The position numbers and the translations under genes were made by a program. Shown piece after piece: positions 10,749 to 20,159 of a DNA stretch of 52,654 nucleotides. This DNA comes from Thermogemmatispora onikobensis (GTDB lineage Bacteria > Chloroflexota > Ktedonobacteria > Ktedonobacterales > Ktedonobacteraceae). The stretch lies in contig NZ_BDGT01000049.1 in the NCBI RefSeq assembly GCF_001748285.1, positions 1-52,654 of the forward strand, given 5' to 3'. The notes beneath the pieces were generated by a model that saw only the letters and a program-made list of their open reading frames with translations, was not told where the DNA came from and did not search any database. Numbering within the stretch: position 1 is the stretch's first letter; every line of letters begins with the position of its first letter.

Positions 10749-11843
10749 TCAGAGTCCAATACAGACCGATTTCAGCTCGGTATAGTTCTCCAGGACCTCG
10801 TGGCCCATCTCGCGCCCCCACCCGGATTGCTTGTAACCACCGAAGGGCAATGCGGCATCAAAGACATTATAGCAGTTGACATAAACCGTACCGGCTCGCA
10901 GCTGCTGCGCCAGGCGATGAGCCTTACTGATATCGCGCGTCCAGATGCCCGCCGCCAGCCCGTAGACCGTATCGTTAGCCACCGGCGGGATCTCATCCAG
11001 CTCCTTGATGGGCATGGCCGTGACCACCGGCCCAAAGATCTCCTCCTGCACCACCTTCATATCCTGGCGCACATTGACCAGGACCGTCGGCTCGACGAAG
11101 TACCCCTGGTCGCCGTAACGCCTGGCCCCACAAAGCGGGGTAGCCCCATCGGCCAGGCCGGCCTCAATGTAGCCGGAGACACGCTGCAGCTGCTCCTCAG
11201 AAACCAGCGGCCCCATCTGCGTCGCCGGATCAAAACCTGGCCCCAGGCGAATCTTCTTGGCCTCTTCGGCCACGCCCTCGACAACGCGATCAAAGACCGC
11301 CTGCTCGACATAGAGGCGCGACCCGGCGCAGCAACACTGCCCGTGGTTGAAAAAGATGGCATGGGCCGCCCCCTTGATAGCACGGTCAAGGTCGCTATCC
11401 TTGAGCACGATATTCGGCGATTTGCCGCCCAACTCCAGCGTCACCTTTTTGAGATTGCCCGCAGCAGCGTGGACGATAAGCTTGCCAACCTCCGTCGAAC
11501 CAGTGAAGGCGATCTTATCGACGTCGGGATGGGCCGCCAGGGCCGCGCCCGCGGTCTCGCCAAAACCGGGCACGATGTTGACGACCCCATCGGGGAAACC
11601 CGCCTCCTGGATCAGCTCGCCCAGGCGCAGGGCCGAAAGCGGGGTTTGCTCAGCCGGCTTGAGGACAATGGTACAGCCAGCAGCCAGAGCCGGGGCCAGC
11701 TTCCAGGCCGCCATCAAAAGGGGGAAATTCCAGGGGATAATCTGCCCAACAACGCCTATCGGCTCGCGCAAGGTATAGGCGAAATAGTCGCCCGGCGTGG
11801 AGATCGGAATGGTATGGCCTTCGATCTTGGTCGCCCAGCCCGC
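10749..11843 (-). pseudogene. Aldehyde dehydrogenase, C-terminal 364 residues (gene interrupted)
   Basis: This is the downstream part of an NAD(P)-dependent aldehyde dehydrogenase. It reads [20 protein letters not shown], then [17 protein letters not shown] (cofactor strand), FTGSTEVG, the general-base Glu in LELGGKSPN, the catalytic Cys in [12 protein letters not shown], and EEIFGPVV. The N-terminal 133 residues are found at 19,761-20,159 in the same orientation. The two parts abut in frame if the 7.9 kb between them is removed, giving about 498 residues, the usual family length. The catalytic half has no start of its own with a ribosome site (the first ATG-like start, at 11,771, lies inside the fold). 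The gene is therefore very likely inactive unless the insertion excises. Confidence 0.9.
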
Positions 11844-11846
11844 CTG

Positions 11847-11870
11847 CCGCTCTGCAGCGCTAAGTAGCGG
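11847..11870 (+). repeat. Left-end subterminal hairpin of the insertion
   Basis: CCGCT (11,847-11,851) pairs with AGCGG (11,866-11,870), three bases inside the proposed left boundary, with an inner CGCT/AGCG pairing as an alternative. Subterminal hairpins near the left end are what the single-strand transposase of IS200/IS605 elements recognises. This one is short, so the assignment is tentative. Confidence 0.35.
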
Positions 11871-11994
11871 TATAGCTTGTCTTTGGCACGGGAAGGCAAA
11901 TGGCTTCTCGATCTTAGGCTACTGTTGCACGCTTTTACAGAATGCTGTGAAGGTTACACTGTTAGTAGGCTTTTTTACCCTGAAAGGCTTCCCC

Positions 11995-12834
11995 TTAGTT
12001 CTCTCTGGAGCTTTCTCCCCTGTCATTAGCTCGCTTCTGTTCAATACATTGCTGGAATTCCTGGATCAGCCGTGACGGGTTGGGCTCCCAAGGGTCAAGC
12101 TCAAAGGCATCAGGCGCCAGGTCACGTCGGGGGGCAAAGTACAGGTGTTTGATTAGCAGCCAGCCTTCTCGGCTCCACGGGAATGTGTACAGCCGTCGGA
12201 GTCTAACCTGCGGATATTGATCACACCAGAACTGCACCAAGCTGTAGAGTAGTTGACGGAGGTGAATTCGAGCCTGGGGACGGACTACAGTTGAAAGTAC
12301 AAATGCGTCATACTCGCCTGGCTCATAGGTCAGGATAGCTTCAGGGGGGATATCCTGCTCCTGGATTTCACGCCGCAATAGTTTCAAGATGGTGTCCATC
12401 TCTAGGGGCATGATGGTAATAGCCCCAAGGACGCTCCTGCGGTCCTGTGCGTCGAATAAGATCCTGCACATGTATGGGTTTTTCTGCCACCACCGGTATG
12501 TGATCTTGGGATCAACTGTTCCTTCCGGTCCATACATCTCGAAGTCGAGTGCTAGTACGTAGGGAAGATCTCCCTCTCTGATCCAGTCGGTGGCGACGGT
12601 AATGGGAGGCTGCTGTTCCTTACCCTTTGTCTTCGTCTTGCCTTTGGTTTGAGAGGAAGAGAGTTTCTCAATATCCGAGCGCAGATATAGTGCGCCTCTG
12701 TCTTTCCCTGGGGGGAGTTGCTTTCGAATATGCTCCGCGTGGCGGTAAAAAGACCTCCCCGAGAGGCCCGTTACTTCGACGAAGAGGGGAATGGCTTCCT
12801 TCGCTTCCAACCATTGTTTCTCTTGCTTACTCAT
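11995..12834 (-). CDS. HTH plus GNAT-like protein of the insertion
   Basis: This 279-residue protein begins at ATG 12,834, about 33 bases after its predicted transcript start. Residues ~8-60 look like a helix-turn-helix of the excisionase/MerR type (SGRSFYRHAEHIRKQLP, then LYLRSDIEKL). A Lys/Gln-rich linker (about 60-75) follows. The remaining 200 residues resemble an acetyltransferase fold: a YRWWQKNPYMCRIL strand, VLGAITIMPL, then VVRPQARIHLRQLLYSLVQFW where the acetyl-CoA loop would be, although the usual Gly pattern is poor. It is the only minus-strand gene of the insertion and is divergent from the operon. It may be the regulator that binds the repeated motif in between. Its codon use is less GC-rich than its neighbours'. 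Confidence 0.65.
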   Translation of the reverse strand: MSKQEKQWLEAKEAIPLFVEVTGLSGRSFYRHAEHIRKQLPPGKDRGALYLRSDIEKLSSSQTKGKTKTKGKEQQPPITVATDWIREGDLPYVLALDFEMYGPEGTVDPKITYRWWQKNPYMCRILFDAQDRRSVLGAITIMPLEMDTILKLLRREIQEQDIPPEAILTYEPGEYDAFVLSTVVRPQARIHLRQLLYSLVQFWCDQYPQVRLRRLYTFPWSREGWLLIKHLYFAPRRDLAPDAFELDPWEPNPSRLIQEFQQCIEQKRANDRGESSREN

Positions 12835-12865
12835 AGATTTCCTTATCTGGTTTTGTCAGGAGCTT

Positions 12866-12901
12866 TGTCAGTAATTATAGCACAGAAGTGGCTCAAGGCA
12901 A
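12866..12901 (-). promoter_or_regulatory. Promoter for the HTH/GNAT-like gene
   Basis: On the minus strand: TTGCCT (12,896-12,901), a 16-base spacer, TATAAT (12,874-12,879). The 17-base segment 12,866-12,882 is repeated perfectly, inverted, at 12,957-12,973, so the -10 regions of both divergent promoters are the same sequence including a TGTCA motif just downstream. Confidence 0.65.
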
Positions 12902-12936
12902 GCAGGCTAAGTGCGTCAGTCAGTTGTCTTGTAGTA

Positions 12937-12973
12937 TTGACAATGTCACTTTTAGCTGCTATAATTACTGACA
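12937..12973 (+). promoter_or_regulatory. Consensus promoter for the nine-gene run
   Basis: TTGACA (12,937-12,942), exactly 17 bases, TATAAT (12,960-12,965): a perfect housekeeping-sigma consensus, with a TGTCA-class motif within the spacer and another just after the -10 box. Such a strong promoter overlapped by operator-like repeats suggests it is normally repressed. The leader to the first gene is over 400 bases. Confidence 0.7.
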
Positions 12974-13391
12974 GATGTGCCGTTTGTCACTAGATATACT
13001 GTTGCTGCCGACATTTGGAAACCATTTTGTCACTTTATGGAAAATGTGTCAGTGACATGGCACGGTTGTTGGCAGAAGTACTTTGACAACTATATGCAGC
13101 TTGGGGGTGTTCTGCAGGGGAGCCAAGCACCTGGGTGACATGTGGCAAGGAGAGGAGGCAAGGCCGGCGAGCTGGAGGTGACTGTTCTCAGGTTGAGAAG
13201 GGGCTGGCTCGCTCGGAGGTGTGCGGCATCTTCCCTGTATATGCCTATGCCTTGTGGGGACAGTAGTTCCTGGGGGTCTGCCTCTCTCCTGGGAGAGCAT
13301 GCCACACAGCAGTGGTTGCCCGGCCCTTTCTGCCTCTCTTGTCTGTCTTTTCGGTTTACATCGGTGTCTCGTTCTCCCTAAGGAGGTCCTC

Positions 13392-13721
13392 GTGTCTGCC
13401 TTCCCGTCTTTCCCTCCTGTCGTTCCCTCTCGATTGCGTCGGCGACGCGCTCGGAGAGCTGCGCGTACACCCTGGGCAGTGCCTTATGCACGTCTGGTGG
13501 CGCAGGCGCGTCGTCTGTTCTGTGGGCACACGGTGCTGGTTCCCTCTCCTGTCGGTCTTCATCCTGACGGGACCCCGGCCTTCCGTTGGGGTCGGGGAGT
13601 CGTGACTTCCGTCGCTGACGACGGAAGTGTCTGCGTGGTGTTCTTCGAGTCGGGCAGGAGCCACAAACAGTGTTTTGGCGTCTCCTTTGCCCTGCAGCAG
13701 TTTCGGGTGCTCTCTTCCTAG
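13392..13721 (+). CDS. Unknown basic protein, first gene of insertion operon
   Basis: This is a 109-residue protein from GTG 13,392, chosen for the preceding AAGGAGG (13,380-13,386) at good spacing. The N-terminal third is very Arg-rich (RLRRRRARRAAR) and could bind nucleic acid. The C-terminal part (VLVPSPVGL, GRGVVTSVADDGSVCVVFF) has the alternating hydrophobic pattern of a small beta-barrel such as an SH3/KOW-type fold. No family is recognised. The next gene starts 28 bases after its stop. Confidence 0.55.
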   Translation: MSAFPSFPPVVPSRLRRRRARRAARTPWAVPYARLVAQARRLFCGHTVLVPSPVGLHPDGTPAFRWGRGVVTSVADDGSVCVVFFESGRSHKQCFGVSFALQQFRVLSS

Positions 13722-13749
13722 CCCCCTATTCTGATCAAGGAGGTGTTCT

Positions 13750-14427
13750 ATGTCCCCTCTGTCTTCTCTCTCGTGGCGGGTTCGCTGGCGCGGACGGGTA
13801 TGGTATCCCAATGAGCTGGAGGAACTCCTGCGGCTGTGTGGACGTGACCCTGCAATCCTACAGGAACCCGCAGCGGTCGTGATTGATCCTGACTTGGAGG
13901 ACGAGGTCATTTGCGACACGTTTCAGAACATTCTCTTGACGATTGCCACCGCCCTGGGGACTAAAGATGCTCTGCTCTTCTTCCATCCCCAGAATACCGA
14001 GGAAGACTGGTACCTCGCGGGACGACTTCACTATGACCTTGGGGGAGAGCGTGGGCCGCATGCGCTGCTGCTGACTCAGCAGCGCGCTCGGACGCTGGTG
14101 GGTCAGCAGCCGGAGCGAGAGAAACTGATCACTGCTTTCCTGACTGGGTTCGTGCAACGTTTTCTGGAAGACCAATGCCTCCCTCCCCAATACTGTCCCT
14201 TGCTGGTCCCTCAGGGGGTGTTCCTGGAGGTGGTGCCTGTGCGTTCGGAGGGGACTCCACCCACACGCATGGACCAGGAACCGACGGAAGCTTCCTCAGG
14301 TTCCACCGGCTGGTTGTTGCTGCAGCCTGGGAAACGCTCCCCCTATGTGGTATGTTTCCCAGCCCCAGCTCCTGGGTCCGTCCAGATTGACGAGCGTGGG
14401 TTGAACCGCCCCTATCCCTGGTGGTGA
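13750..14427 (+). CDS. Unknown 225-residue protein of insertion operon
   Basis: The start is ATG 13,750, preceded by CAAGGAGGTGTTCT. The first 20 residues are basic, followed by acidic helical stretches (DPDLEDEVICDTFQNILLTIATAL) and a segment, QQRARTLVGQQPEREKLITAFLTGFVQRFLED, that looks like a compact helical domain. It has no transmembrane segment or recognisable catalytic motif. Residues ~170-190 are a Ser/Thr/Glu-rich linker. Function is unknown, and it is probably co-transcribed with the following genes of the insertion. Confidence 0.6.
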   Translation: MSPLSSLSWRVRWRGRVWYPNELEELLRLCGRDPAILQEPAAVVIDPDLEDEVICDTFQNILLTIATALGTKDALLFFHPQNTEEDWYLAGRLHYDLGGERGPHALLLTQQRARTLVGQQPEREKLITAFLTGFVQRFLEDQCLPPQYCPLLVPQGVFLEVVPVRSEGTPPTRMDQEPTEASSGSTGWLLLQPGKRSPYVVCFPAPAPGSVQIDERGLNRPYPWW

Positions 14428-14542
14428 GATACACCGCCAGCGAGGTGTTTCTGGGGAGGTGTCTCGCTTCTCTGCCGGGCTTTCCCAGGTGCACCTCGCA
14501 CTGCTCCTTCTGTTAGCATGCACACCTGGAAAGGGGGCATTC

Positions 14543-15001
14543 GTGATCCCAGCAGCTACAGAGCGGGTGGGTCAGGAGGAGCCAGAGGACGCTGCTGCCT
14601 CTCCTGTTCCCCTGGAGATCCTGCTGGCCCAGGTAGAGACCTTGCTGCGACGTCCGGGTCGACTCTTCTGGGTCGGGGCATCGCCGGCGCTGCCTACCCT
14701 CTGGTTCTTCTGGCCTCCCTGGTTCGCCCCGGATCGGCGGGGCCGCTTCCTGGAAACCCGCCGGGCGTACCTGGAGGCCCTTCGGGAGGTGCTGTGTCGC
14801 ATTGAGCGGCTGCGCCGGGTGCCTGATCCTGCCCGACAGGGCCAGGCTTTCTGGCTCGCTGAGCACCTACGGGCGGAACTGCAGGAGCGGCTCACCTGGT
14901 ATGAGATCCGCCCAGGACCAACCTGGCCGCCCTGGGATGGGCCTGTCCGCTCCTCACGAGCAGGCCGGTCACGGGGGGCTGATCCTTCCAGCACCCCATA
15001 G
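14543..15001 (+). CDS. Unknown 152-residue protein of insertion operon
   Basis: I prefer GTG 14,543, because AAGGGGG (14,531-14,537) stands right before it. An in-frame GTG at 14,459 would add 28 residues including a Leu-rich run that looks like a signal peptide or lipoprotein leader (ALLLLLAC), but its purine stretch is too close. If that longer form is real the protein would be exported. The body has a Trp/Pro-rich hydrophobic centre (PTLWFFWPPWFAP) followed by Arg/Glu-rich helices suggestive of a coiled coil. No family is recognised. Confidence 0.5.
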   Translation: MIPAATERVGQEEPEDAAASPVPLEILLAQVETLLRRPGRLFWVGASPALPTLWFFWPPWFAPDRRGRFLETRRAYLEALREVLCRIERLRRVPDPARQGQAFWLAEHLRAELQERLTWYEIRPGPTWPPWDGPVRSSRAGRSRGADPSSTP

Positions 15002-15123
15002 GCCAGTCTACGCCACAGCCCCGTACATGCCACGTTCAGCAGTGCTGTTTTCTCCCCTCCGTCTGTCTGCGTTGCTCCTGTCGTGCTTTTGTCGCCAAAC
15101 CTGAGAGGAGGTTTTCTCTCGTC

Positions 15124-15828
15124 ATGACCGCTCCATCCCCTTCCCAGTCTTTCTCCACAGGCATTCCGCTGCGAGCCAGTCGCCTGCACCCTGCGGCAGC
15201 GGCTCCTGTGACCGCGGACCGGGTCCCTCTGACAGAGCCGGAGATGCCTGCGGATGGTTCCCCTGGCTCCGGTCGCTCGCGCACGCCTCAGACGCCGCGC
15301 CGGGGACGGGTACGGGCTGCTCTGAGTCTGGGGACAGGAATGCTGCTGGCCCTGTGCTGGCTCGGGTGGCTTGGTCCCACCCTGGGGGCATGGTGGCAGC
15401 AGCAGCAAGCCCAGTATGCCTATGGCACAGCCCGGGTCAGTCAGCTTGATGTCGTAGTGCATGGCCAGGTCCACCATTTCCTGGGGCAGGACTGGCACGG
15501 CACGATCCTGGTCGTGGAGATCACTGCCCCGGCTTCAGCCTCGGGTCCTGGCTCGGCTGTCGCTGGGGTGGGGGCAGTGCGCCTGTGTACTTTCCCCCAG
15601 GTGGTGCAGGAGGCTCCCGGTGATCTCCCGCGCGTAGTGACCCTGCAGGTGCAACCGTCGAGATCGGGACAGGCGCCTGTGATCCTGGTCCGGGTCGACG
15701 GTGTCCCCTTTCAGCTCGTGTGTCATCTAACCGCACGAGTTCCTGACGAGCTGGCTCCTGCTGTGCAGGTTCCTGATGCGCGGCTGAGTGACGTTCCAGC
15801 AGGGTCCTCGGGGGTGGGCAATGGCTAA
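15124..15828 (+). CDS. Unknown single-span membrane protein of insertion operon
   Basis: This 234-residue protein from ATG 15,124 (GAGAGGAGG upstream) has a disordered Pro/Ala/Ser-rich cytoplasmic N-terminus of about 60 residues ending in RRGRVR. One transmembrane helix follows (about 64-89, AALSLGTGMLLALCWLGWLGP), and then an outside beta-rich domain of about 140 residues (VSQLDVVVHGQVHHF, TILVVEITAP, VVTLQVQPSR, VILVRVDGVPF). This N-in topology with a beta-sandwich outside would fit an envelope sensor, anti-sigma-like or secretion accessory protein. There is no sequence match I can name. The stop overlaps the next start by 8 bases. Confidence 0.6.
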   Translation: MTAPSPSQSFSTGIPLRASRLHPAAAAPVTADRVPLTEPEMPADGSPGSGRSRTPQTPRRGRVRAALSLGTGMLLALCWLGWLGPTLGAWWQQQQAQYAYGTARVSQLDVVVHGQVHHFLGQDWHGTILVVEITAPASASGPGSAVAGVGAVRLCTFPQVVQEAPGDLPRVVTLQVQPSRSGQAPVILVRVDGVPFQLVCHLTARVPDELAPAVQVPDARLSDVPAGSSGVGNG

Positions 15829-16360
15829 GTCCGGTCCCCTGGAGCCTTTCCCCAGTTGTGAGCCGCCCGCTCCTGATGCTCCCTGGCCCCACTGGCTGGC
15901 CTGGCTCTCCTGGGCCAGCCACCAGGTCGGTGCCTACGAGATCGCCCTCTCGCTGGCGGATCTGGATCGCCTGACCCGTGGACTGAGACAGCTCTGTCTA
16001 CGGCTGGAGGCTGAGACCGCGCGCGCGCATGGCGGACCCCCACACGTGTCTGCCAGTGCAGTGGAAGCGGCCTTGATCCACCAGCAGCATCTGCTCACGG
16101 ATGCCTGCCAGCAGTGTGATGAGACCCGCCTGCTGGCCGGCACCCTGGCCCGGCGGATCAGTAGCGAGGAGGCGGAGGGCCTGCCCCCCTGGCGCCGGCC
16201 AGGGGTCAACAGCCCGGATCGCCTGCGCCAGCAGGTCCGGCAGCAGCTCCTGCTCCTGCAGGTTACTCTAGGCCGCCTGGAGGCTAGCCGGGGTCCCAGA
16301 GCGATCAGCAGGACGGTCCTGTTTCCCTGCCCGACAGAGGGAGGAGGTGAGCATCGGTGA
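15821..16360 (+). CDS. Unknown helical protein of insertion operon
   Basis: This 179-residue protein from ATG 15,821 overlaps the membrane-protein gene by 8 bases, with GGGGGTGGG as ribosome site. After a Pro/Trp-rich start it is almost all helix, rich in Leu, Gln and Arg (DLDRLTRGLRQLCLRLEAE, DRLRQQVRQQLLLLQVTLGRL), so a helical bundle or coiled coil is likely. Cys-Gln-Gln-Cys at about 103-106 could be redox or metal active but has no partner motif. Its stop overlaps the next start by 4 bases (GTGA). Confidence 0.55.
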   Translation: MAKSGPLEPFPSCEPPAPDAPWPHWLAWLSWASHQVGAYEIALSLADLDRLTRGLRQLCLRLEAETARAHGGPPHVSASAVEAALIHQQHLLTDACQQCDETRLLAGTLARRISSEEAEGLPPWRRPGVNSPDRLRQQVRQQLLLLQVTLGRLEASRGPRAISRTVLFPCPTEGGGEHR

Positions 16361-16650
16361 TCCGTGCCAGAACGGGCCGGTTCCCAGCAGGGACCTGGCT
16401 GCTCTATGCGCGTCCCGACGGGCTGAAGGCGGCGGCCATTGTCCAACAGCCACAACAGCGGCCTGGTGAGGATTTCCAGGCGGCCCTGGTCCTGGATGGG
16501 CTGTCCGATCAGGAGGTCGAGGCCCTGATCCGCCTGCTCGGGCTGGCCCCCTTTCCCGAATGGCTGCCAGCCGGTCCCGCCAGGACTCGGGCCTTCTTCT
16601 CCGTCGACGAGGCGCGTTCTCCTTCTTGCCAGCCTGGTTCAGACGAGTAA
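16357..16650 (+). CDS. Unknown 97-residue protein of insertion operon
   Basis: The GTG 16,357 start overlaps the previous stop (GTGA), with GAGGGAGGAGG just upstream, so translation is coupled. The sequence has a short beta part (GTWLLYARPDGLKAAAIV) and an acidic helical part (LDGLSDQEVEALIRLLGL). It is compact and soluble with no known motif. Confidence 0.5.
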   Translation: MIRARTGRFPAGTWLLYARPDGLKAAAIVQQPQQRPGEDFQAALVLDGLSDQEVEALIRLLGLAPFPEWLPAGPARTRAFFSVDEARSPSCQPGSDE

Positions 16651-16771
16651 GCCTGAACGCGCTGCTTGTGCCAGTTCCCGGTTCTTCCCCTGTTCAGGCC
16701 CTCACGTTGTTCGTTCCCTCATCTGCCTACAGATGTGGGTGGGGACCGCTCCCCATCCAGGAGGAAAGGTT

Positions 16772-17014
16772 ATGCAGTGGATGAAAGGACTGTTCCATCG
16801 GACAGCTACCCACCCAGAGCGTTCCCTGCGCCGGCTGGAACGCCAGATCGCCGCCTATCAGGCCCGTCAGATGCGCCTGGAGGCCACGATCCAGCAGTTG
16901 TGTGCACAACACCTTGCCCTCCAGCTTACCTGGAGGCGGCGCCAGCGGCATCCGGCGGGGGCAGGCCAGCCCGCTCGTGTCTCCCCAGGAGGTCGGCATG
17001 CCCTGCGCGACTAG
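16772..17014 (+). CDS. Small coiled-coil protein before the sigma factor
   Basis: This 80-residue protein from ATG 16,772 has GGAGGAAAGG before it. After a short amphipathic start, residues ~20-57 form one long heptad-like helix ([20 protein letters not shown] and onward), then a basic tail. Its last 17 bases overlap the start of the sigma-factor gene, whose ribosome site lies inside it, so the two are translationally coupled. A role as partner or regulator of that sigma factor is a reasonable guess, not shown by homology. Confidence 0.5.
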
Positions 17015-17939
17015 CCGCCTGTCTTCCGGGAGCAGGCCCCGCTCGCCTGCTCCCTCTCCCCATCTGACCCCCCGGCGCCTGCGTGCCTACCGGACCGACC
17101 TGACTCTAGTCACCCTGTACCTGAACGATCTGTCCGTCTGCCCCCAGGACGGTGCAGGGAGCGCAGAGACAGGAACGGCTCCCCGTGCTCAGCAGACGCA
17201 GACGATCATGGCTTTGGTAGAGAGAAACCTGCGCCTGGTGGTCAGCGTGGCGCGGACCTATGCGCCCCTGCTCCGGGAACAGGCAGCCCTGGACCTGGCT
17301 GATCTGATCCAGGAGGGCAATCTGGGGCTGATTGAGGCAGCCAGCCACTATGACCCGGAGCGAGGCACCCGGTTCAGCACGTATGCCACCTGGTGGATCA
17401 GGCAGGCGATCCTCCGGGCGATCCGGGCAGCGGATACCATCCGGTTGCCTGAGTATGTCCAGGTCCGTCTTCACACCTCAGCCCCAGGGGGGACAGAGGA
17501 GGGCGCACAGCCTGCTCTCCCCGGCTCACAGCCTGTGCCCCGGACGGTCTCCCTGGACGCCCTGACACAGCAAGAGCGCTGGCAGATAGAGGAGCAGTGC
17601 GATCCCCGAGCGCCTGATCCCGCTGAGGCCGTCTGCAGTCCCGACGGGGCAGAGGAGCAACGACGCTGGCTGGCAGAGGCGCTGCGGCACCAGTTGACTC
17701 CCCGGCAGCGCATCGTGATGGAAGCCCTGCTGGGTTGGGGGGACCGCTGGCGTCCAGCCACCCTGGTGGAGATTGCCCGCGCGCTGGGCCTGCCCCCCGA
17801 GCGCGTCCGACAGGTGCGCGAGGCCGCCCTGGCACGGCTGCGAACCGCCTGGCAGGCTTACTGCCAGCACCAGACACCAGAAGAGAAAGGAGTGATCTGC
17901 GATGATCCAACCGGATTCTTTTCCCGACAAGGTACCTGA
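16998..17939 (+). CDS. Sigma-70-family RNA polymerase sigma factor
   Basis: This 313-residue protein from ATG 16,998 has AGGAGGTCGGC directly upstream. Region 2 is very well kept: [14 protein letters not shown] (about 77-90), [17 protein letters not shown] (99-115) for core binding, and [20 protein letters not shown] (122-141) for -10 recognition and melting. Region 4 near the C-terminus has [14 protein letters not shown], then the [23 protein letters not shown]. The segment between (about 155-235) is not a normal region 3, and region 1.2 is reduced to [18 protein letters not shown]. Region 2 is closer to the primary/group 2 type than to ECF sigmas. It overlaps both neighbours (17 and 38 bases). 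It probably reprograms host polymerase towards promoters of the insertion or a related element. Confidence 0.85.
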
Positions 17940-18288
17940 ACCTTCTGCCTCGGAGCTGCTGACCGAGGTCTTGAGGCTGCTCAAACGAGAGGACTGCATC
18001 CGACTCTACAGTCGGGTCAAGGCCGCGCTCATGATCCAGGAGTGGCCAATCACCCCCGAGTCCAGGGCAAGGGAGGTCCGGCTCAAGCAGGCCGGGTTGA
18101 TCCTGTTAGGGTATGGCTTCGAGCAAGGATGGGGAAGTACCCTGGCGGCAGTCGATCTGATCCAGCGCTCCCTCCCTTCCAAGAAGCGGGTGCTCCTGGA
18201 AGAGGAGGCCCAGGCAGTGGTGCACCGCTGGGAGCAGGCACTGGAGCGCCTGCTCCAGCAGCTTCAGACCGAGCTGGATGGTCACTGA
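17902..18288 (+). CDS. Unknown protein overlapping the sigma factor
   Basis: This 128-residue protein from ATG 17,902 has AAAGGAG upstream and overlaps the sigma-factor gene by 38 bases in another frame. It is acidic and helical ([50 protein letters not shown]). The tight overlap with the sigma gene makes it the second candidate, with the 80-residue protein upstream, for an anti-sigma or cofactor role. No domain is recognised. Confidence 0.55.
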
Positions 18289-18306
18289 TGGCAGGCTCCT
18301 CCAGTG

Positions 18307-18319
18307 CCTGGTGACCAGG
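18307..18319. repeat. Short palindrome between operon and tnpB
   Basis: CCTGGT-G-ACCAGG, a 6-bp perfect inverted repeat 18 bases after the last operon gene, could be a weak terminator or the original left end of a minimal tnpB unit. There is no T-run. The 247 bases between the operon and tnpB hold no convincing gene. Confidence 0.3.
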
Positions 18320-18535
18320 GACCATGCAGCCGGAGCCTGTACTCAGCCAGGAGGAGGAAGAGGAAGATCGCTCATCTGCTTCTGGGGGAAGGAGATCGCC
18401 CAAGAGACCAGGCGTTTCCCAGGCGCTCCTTCCCTCCAGGAGAAGGTGCCTCTCTCTCCATCAGATGACCGGAAAGGAAAACGAGCGTGGGAACACGTCT
18501 TGTGAGAAGGAATACGAAGAGGAAGGAGGAGGCCG

Positions 18536-19744
18536 ATGGCCCAGGTGCAGCGAACGATCCCGCTGCTGCTGCCAGCCGATGAAGACCTGCGTGAGACCCT
18601 GGCCGTCTTCCAGCGGGTGCAGCAGCAGCTCTCAGCCCCCTGCTTCAACGGGGGCAAGCCCCTCTCTGCCATGGGGCTGCATCGGGCCTGCTATCACGAG
18701 GTCAAGGGCCAGCTCAACGCGCAGATGACCTGCACCGCCATCCGGCTGGTGGCCGCCGCCTACCAGAGTGCCCAGAGCAACCGCCGCCCGCCACAGTGCC
18801 CGTTCCAGTTCCGGCGCAGACGGGCGCTGTTTCTGATCGGAGCACGTGGGCGGGACGCCAGCCTGCAGTCCGACGGCATCCTCTCCATCTGGACCGTGGC
18901 CGGGCGTAAACGCCTGCCCTCCCAGGTGCCGGAGGCCTTTCAGCCGCGGCTGGCGCAGGCGAAGACGATAGACAGCCTCACGGTGCTGGAACGCAATGGG
19001 CGGCTGCTGGGGCGACTGACCATCACGCTGGAGGTGCCAGACCCGCAGCCCCTCCCACCCTCGGATGAGGCAGCAGGAGCGAGCCGGGTCGTGGGGATCG
19101 ATCTGAATGAGACGAATGCGGTGGTGGCCGTAGATGGACAGGAGCGGGTGCTCTTTGTGAGTGGGAAGGCGGTGAAGGTGCGCAATCGACGGACCGCGAA
19201 GACACGGGCGAGACTGCAGCGGAAGCTGGCGGCCCACAAGGCACAGCATCGGGACACCCGCAGTGTCCGACGGGTGCTGAAACGGCTTGGTCGCCGGCAA
19301 CGACACCGCACCCAGACCTTTGCCCAGACCGTAGCAAAGCGCCTGGTGGAGTGGGTGCCCCCACACGCGGTGCTGGTCTTCGAACAGCTCCAGGTGCCGC
19401 CGCCCCAGCAAGAGCAGGTCCGGGGGCGAGCGCTGCGGCGGCGGCTTGCGCTGTGGCAACGCGGCCTAGTCCGGCGCTGGACAGAGCAGCAGGCCCAGGA
19501 GCGGGGGCTGTGCGTGGTGGAGGTGAACCCGGCTTACACCAGTCAGATCTGTTCGCAGTGTGGACAGCGGGGGAACCGCCGTCGACATGCGTTCACTTGT
19601 CCGCAGTGCGGGTACCAGGAGCATGCCGACATCAATGCCGCTCGGAATATCCGTGATCGCTGTACTGCCCTGCGGGGCAGTGGGCTGCTGTCAACCAGCC
19701 CTGAAGCCCGGGCCGACAAGGCTGCGGGCAAGCCCCTGGCTTGA
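18536..19744 (+). CDS. tnpB: TnpB RNA-guided nuclease (IS605 OrfB family)
   Basis: This 402-residue TnpB, ancestor-type relative of Cas12, has a complete RuvC triad: Asp189 in VVGIDLNETNA, Glu283 in VLVFEQLQVP and Asp365 in EHADINAARNI. The zinc ribbon has Cys339/Cys342 (CSQC) and Cys355/Cys358 (CPQC), and the NPAYTSQICSQCG motif is classical. The N-terminal WED/REC part (1-180) is compact and has a Pro/Arg-rich segment, and the length is normal. The start is ATG 18,536, with AGGAAGGAGGAGG before it. It should cut DNA matching the guide carried by an RNA made from the element's right end. No TnpA partner is present, as in IS1341-type units. It looks active, not a nuclease-dead derivative. Confidence 0.93.
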   Translation: MAQVQRTIPLLLPADEDLRETLAVFQRVQQQLSAPCFNGGKPLSAMGLHRACYHEVKGQLNAQMTCTAIRLVAAAYQSAQSNRRPPQCPFQFRRRRALFLIGARGRDASLQSDGILSIWTVAGRKRLPSQVPEAFQPRLAQAKTIDSLTVLERNGRLLGRLTITLEVPDPQPLPPSDEAAGASRVVGIDLNETNAVVAVDGQERVLFVSGKAVKVRNRRTAKTRARLQRKLAAHKAQHRDTRSVRRVLKRLGRRQRHRTQTFAQTVAKRLVEWVPPHAVLVFEQLQVPPPQQEQVRGRALRRRLALWQRGLVRRWTEQQAQERGLCVVEVNPAYTSQICSQCGQRGNRRRHAFTCPQCGYQEHADINAARNIRDRCTALRGSGLLSTSPEARADKAAGKPLA

Positions 19745-19760
19745 GCCTGGGGCCGTTGAC
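19600..19760 (+). ncRNA. Putative omega RNA overlapping the tnpB 3' end
   Basis: TnpB guide RNAs normally arise from the 3' end of tnpB and the right end of the element, with the guide being flanking DNA. Here the last stretch contains a stem GCCCC-T-GGCT / AGCC-T-GGGGC (19,732-19,753) with a 2-base loop, just before the boundary. The guide would then be the first ~16-20 bases of the aldehyde dehydrogenase flank from 19,761. The 5' limit given is arbitrary. Confidence 0.4.
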
Positions 19761-20159
19761 ATAGCGGAACATGTCGACGGTCAGCGCCACATCGCCGATG
19801 CGCGCAATGCGCAGAGGCTTGCCGTTGTCCAACGATTCAAGCTGAGCAAACTCCTCGCTATGCTGCTCAATGAGGTCGGCCAGCTTCCAGATCAGGCGCC
19901 CACGCTCAGAGGGCTTCATCTTGCGCCAGGGACCGCTCTCGAAGCTGCGCCGCGCCGCCTGCACCGCCCGCTCAATGTCCTCTTTGTCTCCCTCGGCAAC
20001 CTGCGCCAACACTTCGCCAGTGGCCGGATTGTAGACGGGAAAGGTCTTGCCCGAAGCGGCCTCCTCCCATCTCCCCCCAATAAAGAGCTTCTTCGGCCCA
20101 CTTCCAATGAAGGTCTGGACTTCCGGTAAGACAGCGACATTGCTTTCGGCCAGCGTCAT
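19761..20159 (-). pseudogene. Aldehyde dehydrogenase, N-terminal 133 residues (gene interrupted)
   Basis: This is the front of the gene whose catalytic part is at 10,749-11,843. It starts at ATG 20,159 with AAGGAG before it and reads KLFIGGRWEEAASGKTFPVY, NPATGEVLAQVAEGDKEDIE, then LIEQHSEEFAQLESLDNGKP and VALTVDMFRY, where homology stops abruptly. The frame runs on for about 42 foreign codons into the insertion. The fragment lacks both the cofactor domain core and the catalytic Cys, so it cannot be active. Its own promoter and operator upstream are intact and would now drive transcription antisense to tnpB. Confidence 0.9.

Follow-up and report, generated by a model that had tools for sequence, protein, structure and literature searches.

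A putative TGTCA operator array beside an HTH/GNAT-fold regulator gene in a TnpB-ended mobile element of Thermogemmatispora

The element and its divergent promoter region

The window, i.e. the whole 52,654-nt stretch of DNA analysed here, carries a mobile element of ~7.9 kb in which a regulator gene and a cargo operon diverge from an intergenic region rich in TGTCA sites (Table 1). When the two flanks of the element (11700-11880 and 19746-19990) were joined, they matched an uninterrupted target site in G003 (T. carboxidivorans), G001 and G002, and the alignments contained a single gap of ~49 nt, equal to the stretches of element end that the joined query still included. This places the element at ~11825-19759, without target duplication; two or three target bases may have been lost. 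A left end near 11976 was rejected as this is only where homology to G003 starts. Inspection by eye suggests that the interrupted gene codes for an aldehyde dehydrogenase.

The right end carries tnpB and a hairpin ending in GTTGAC, which directly abuts host DNA in the same way in six copies. The terminal position of tnpB and the lack of a target duplication are those of an IS200/IS605-type element. No tnpA (Y1/HUH) was found among the element ORFs in a general profile scan (Pfam, NCBIfam, PHROGs) that was not tnpA-specific, and TnpA may be supplied in trans. Between the array and tnpB, the cargo operon consists mostly of unrecognised ORFs together with a sigma-70 factor. The element thus encodes its own sigma-70 factor beside TnpB (16902-19744), and the D-E-D residues of TnpB look intact by eye. 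In the G002 copy, the sigma factor gene is directly followed by an SSB-like gene (L053, 10988-11530), perhaps a trace of an earlier state in which the element replicated or was conjugative.

Table 1. Coordinates of the features in the window
Feature	Position	Strand	Remarks
Mobile element carrying the array	11825..19759	.	~7.9 kb; bounds from empty site
Regulator gene, 279 aa	11995..12834	-	N-terminal HTH (HTH_17-like) and C-terminal GNAT fold; proposed array binder
TGTCA operator array (putative)	12852..13088	.	10 sites, consensus ~TTTGTCA(C/G)T
TGTCA/TGACA starts	12854, 12866, 12938(-), 12944, 12969(-), 12985, 13028, 13047, 13053(-), 13084(-), 13136(-)		
Left arm, perfect 17-bp inverted repeat	12866..12882	+	operator site and -10 of regulator promoter
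Regulator promoter (predicted)	12874..12901	-	TTGCCT(12901)-16-TATAAT(12879-12874), 10/12 consensus
Cargo promoter (predicted)	12937..12965	+	TTGACA(12937)-17-TATAAT(12960-12965), 12/12 consensus
Right arm, perfect 17-bp inverted repeat	12957..12973	+	-10 of cargo promoter and operator site
Long 5' leader of cargo operon	13110..13391	+	conserved in seven element copies
Cargo ORF, family not recognised	13750..14427	+	in all copies, 68-98% identity
Cargo ORF, family not recognised	15124..15828	+	no family match
Sigma-70 family factor, cargo operon	16902..17939	+	Sigma70_r2 E 7.6e-22, Sigma70_r4 E 4.4e-9
TnpB (OrfB_IS605 / Cas12f1-like TNB domain), right end	18536..19744	+	domain match

A promoter scan returned four promoter-like sites versus 0.4 expected. 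The earlier note had described a perfect 17-bp inverted repeat that includes the -10 boxes of both divergent promoters; indeed, its two arms are 100% complementary. In both promoters, TACTGACA directly follows the -10 box, which puts a half-site at each inferred transcription start, TGTCA for the regulator promoter and TGACA for the cargo promoter. The cargo -35 box is, in turn, one half of a TGACA-A-TGTCA palindrome.

Ten TGTCA/TGACA sites lie within 12854-13088 and an eleventh at 13136 on the minus strand, out of a total of 63 across the whole 52.6-kb window. When 12835-13100 was shuffled with dinucleotides kept (5000 trials), a mean of 1.3 and a maximum of 6 such words were obtained, and none of the shuffles (0/5000) reached the observed 10. 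The longer word TTTGTCA is matched without mismatch at four positions (12852, 12864, 12983 and 13026). The earlier note had reported at least seven TGTCA-based sites in about 200 bases, bounded by 12852 and 13057. This interval holds nine, so the sites are present as reported, but the array ends near 13088 and not at 13057. Its label "iteron-like" fits poorly, since the sites, with a core of 5-8 bp, lie in both orientations at irregular spacings of 6 to 72 bp.

Distribution of the array among element copies

Besides that in the window, homologous units were found once in G003 and twice in G001. Homologous elements that share the flanking genes but lack the repeats would have refuted the switch proposed in the earlier note; instead, the array was present in every copy with the same HTH/GNAT module (4/4: window, one G003, two G001). 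Its cores are also better conserved than their surroundings. Between the window and G001 copy a, 38/40 core positions were identical versus 90/142 other non-promoter positions (Fisher p 5e-5), and for copy b the values were 37/40 and 89/142 (p 2e-4); here, the window sequence served to define the core columns, and core positions were counted outside the promoter hexamers. In both G001 copies, the HTH/GNAT gene is masked except for its C-terminal 24 codons, so that comparison of these genes is confined to that part; masked (N) stretches in several relatives were likewise set aside. Both copies also retain a remnant of a GntR-type gene behind the HTH gene.

G003 contains two element copies with 97.2% identity across the 6.1 kb that run from the equivalent of window position 13086, at the 3' edge of the array, as far as the right end; everything further left differs. 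The first copy has the array and the HTH/GNAT gene; the second has a GntR/UTRA regulator instead, and its promoter region contains neither a TGTCA array nor any other significant repeat. In the G002 copy, the cargo is related but the regulator is of a third kind, with UTRA as its sole recognised domain, and there is no array. As far as these copies tell, the array is tied to the HTH/GNAT gene and not to the cargo, the sigma factor or tnpB, because the copies with a swapped regulator keep the cargo and lack the array. The region thus has repeated sites over two divergent promoters beside an HTH gene, and the sites are co-inherited with the regulator and lost on its replacement. This comparison supports the proposal in the earlier note that the array may be a switch for both the HTH/GNAT gene and the cargo operon.

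The same copies bear on whether the array serves a different binder, such as the element's sigma factor, a cargo protein or a host regulator, and is linked to the HTH gene only incidentally. The presence of a sigma-70 gene in the element speaks for this, as does the overlap of some TGTCA sites with a -35 box, TTGACA itself containing TGACA. However, the GntR/UTRA and UTRA-type copies retain the sigma gene and the cargo and have no array, most sites lack a -10 box at the right distance, and homologous regulators in different gene surroundings carry their own arrays. We therefore consider another binder unlikely; a host protein could be the one that really binds the array.

The regulator family in Ktedonobacteria

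The HTH_17 profile did not match the window protein itself and matched 8 of 14 homologues (best E 1.4e-5). An AF2 model built from four sequences (pLDDT 74.7) places an HTH-like part at the N-terminus and a GNAT topology at the C-terminus. Structural comparison returned GNAT chains, with the top Z of 13.8 for an Naa10 chain (158 residues aligned, rmsd 3.2); a sequence profile search against solved structures gave nothing significant. By eye, the acetyl-CoA-binding Q/R-x-x-G-x-G/A motif is absent, the corresponding segment reading VVRPQARIHLRQLL, and the family consensus has no glycine pair at this position. Absence of the usual motif makes acetyltransferase catalysis unlikely, and our guess is that the GNAT-fold domain serves as a sensor or an oligomerisation part.

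Homologues of the regulator were found in 26/101 Ktedonobacteria genomes. One 4.3-Mb genome (G007; L069 among its loci) gave up to 25 matches to the family. Their upstream regions were examined for significantly repeated 6-mers relative to shuffles, with other intergenic regions of the same loci as controls. At p<=0.05, 21/70 upstream regions were positive versus 3/55 controls, and at p<=0.01, 15/70 versus 2/55; the 70 regions come from related family members, so that the counts are non-independent events. The array of the window thus has equivalents in front of many other genes of the family. About two thirds of the homologues have no significant array by this test, showing that an array is not obligatory for the family.

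The motifs differ within the family. AAGTCTA and AAGTTC occur as direct repeats spaced by 8 bp and AATAAC in inverted pairs, and CTCTCAA, AGTCAA and TAGTTAT were found as well. Close relatives share a motif: AAGTCTA at 61-79% protein identity, CTCTCAA at 94% and AATAAC at 97%. Relatives above ~60% identity tend towards the same motif and distant ones mostly differ, and the motifs vary from subclade to subclade.

Plasmid and phage records did not yield the regulator. A single distant relative is encoded on a viral contig (L113), where no clear array was seen. Several homologues (L057-L066) are transcribed divergently from operons that encode an SLT transglycosylase, a primase-like or Rep_trans-like protein and a tyrosine integrase, and these loci are apparently integrative elements of Ktedonobacteria.

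Function of the array and relation to known systems

Taken together, the array is probably the operator of the divergent HTH_17-GNAT protein, which would repress both itself and the cargo operon. We infer that the protein binds TGTCA half-sites along ~235 bp via its N-terminal helix-turn-helix, probably cooperatively. The sites cover both predicted transcription starts and the cargo -35 box and reach up to ~110 bp into the cargo leader, so protein bound there should bar RNA polymerase from both promoters. Those deep in the leader might have another purpose. Such an autoregulated repressor would hold the cargo operon of the TnpB-ended element silent until repression is lifted, conceivably by an inducer acting on the GNAT-fold domain, and the regulator gene and its array would form one exchangeable module.

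The sign of regulation could differ if the protein on the array were an activator, or formed a filament that sets recombination directionality as excisionases do. HTH_17-type domains are found in excisionase-like proteins, and related winged-HTH proteins, which form oligomers on DNA, are capable of repression as well as activation (RdfS, PMC11963761). However, the sites lie at and downstream of the predicted starts, and both promoters are so close to consensus that they should work unaided. Against an excisionase role, the array is internal (with ~1.0 kb of element to its left and 6.7 kb to its right), there is no second TGTCA cluster at either element end, and the element has no recognised tyrosine or serine recombinase. 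Activation or an excisionase-like role is therefore quite improbable.

Finally, the earlier note had offered a plasmid-type iteron origin, with repeats that bind a replication initiator and an element that has or had an extrachromosomal replicating state, and this is very improbable: as in plasmid iterons, short repeats cluster in an AT-richer intergenic region, and some regulator homologues reside in elements encoding Rep_trans-like protein, primase-like protein and integrases, but in those elements the Rep-like gene is kilobases away, the sites here are short, bidirectional and irregular, unlike regular direct repeats of ~20 bp, no replication protein or initiator gene was recognised among the element ORFs (Pfam, NCBIfam, PHROGs), several of which are of unrecognised family, and one of two 97%-identical copies within a single species does without the array.

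The principle of an autoregulated divergent operator, which we favour here, is known. Temperate phage immunity regions have a repressor gene and operators between divergent promoters and are inherited and exchanged as one module. The putative repressor and its operators resemble them in both arrangement and modular exchange; unlike in phages, no structural genes were recognised in the element. In actinomycete integrative elements of the KorSA/pSAM2 type, an element-encoded GntR repressor controls element genes (PMC3218068). The GntR/UTRA regulator at the same position in the G003 sister copy is similar to this, whereas the HTH_17-GNAT regulator is unrelated to GntR, its operator is a long irregular array and the window element has no recognised Rep, Xis or Int. 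The small winged-HTH proteins RdfS, P2 Cox and BldC are oligomeric and bind DNA at several successive sites; RdfS represses its own expression, and 9-bp direct repeats are used by BldC (PMC11963761). The putative multi-site operator is comparable, and in contrast to RdfS, which has no clear consensus, it has a sharp TGTCA core. To our knowledge, none of these three proteins has a GNAT-fold domain.

The family of HTH_17-GNAT regulators with private arrays is apparently undescribed in the searchable, limited literature, and the DNA letters by themselves tie it to likely targets. It is possible, if still doubtful, that it constitutes a large family of mobile-element regulators in Ktedonobacteria, combining an HTH with a GNAT fold that lacks the acetyl-CoA motif and acts as ligand sensor or oligomerisation part. 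Each member would read its private array, and exchange of regulator and array would give independent control of co-resident copies (heteroimmunity). As motif and protein covary across subclades, the family could show how an excisionase-type HTH reads DNA. The G003 pair, with shared cargo and different regulators in one species, is a natural test case for the exchange of modules between mobile elements in Chloroflexota.

The cargo leader (Table 1) is conserved in the seven copies whatever regulator type accompanies them and contains a GGCGAGYTGG...CTGGCTCGCTCGG hairpin. Rfam had no match in the element, leader included; the leader could be a structured RNA.

An exact 16-mer match in G023 (L041) lies inside a gene reading as an aldo-keto reductase and was dismissed as chance, and a three-site TGTCA pattern had no more matches in the element's own whole genome than a reversed control. 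A separate, tight array of TGTCA direct repeats with a 9-bp period is present on another contig of this genome (L120 4720-4750; G000:C12:42720-42749), upstream of a gene reading as a thiamine-diphosphate enzyme.
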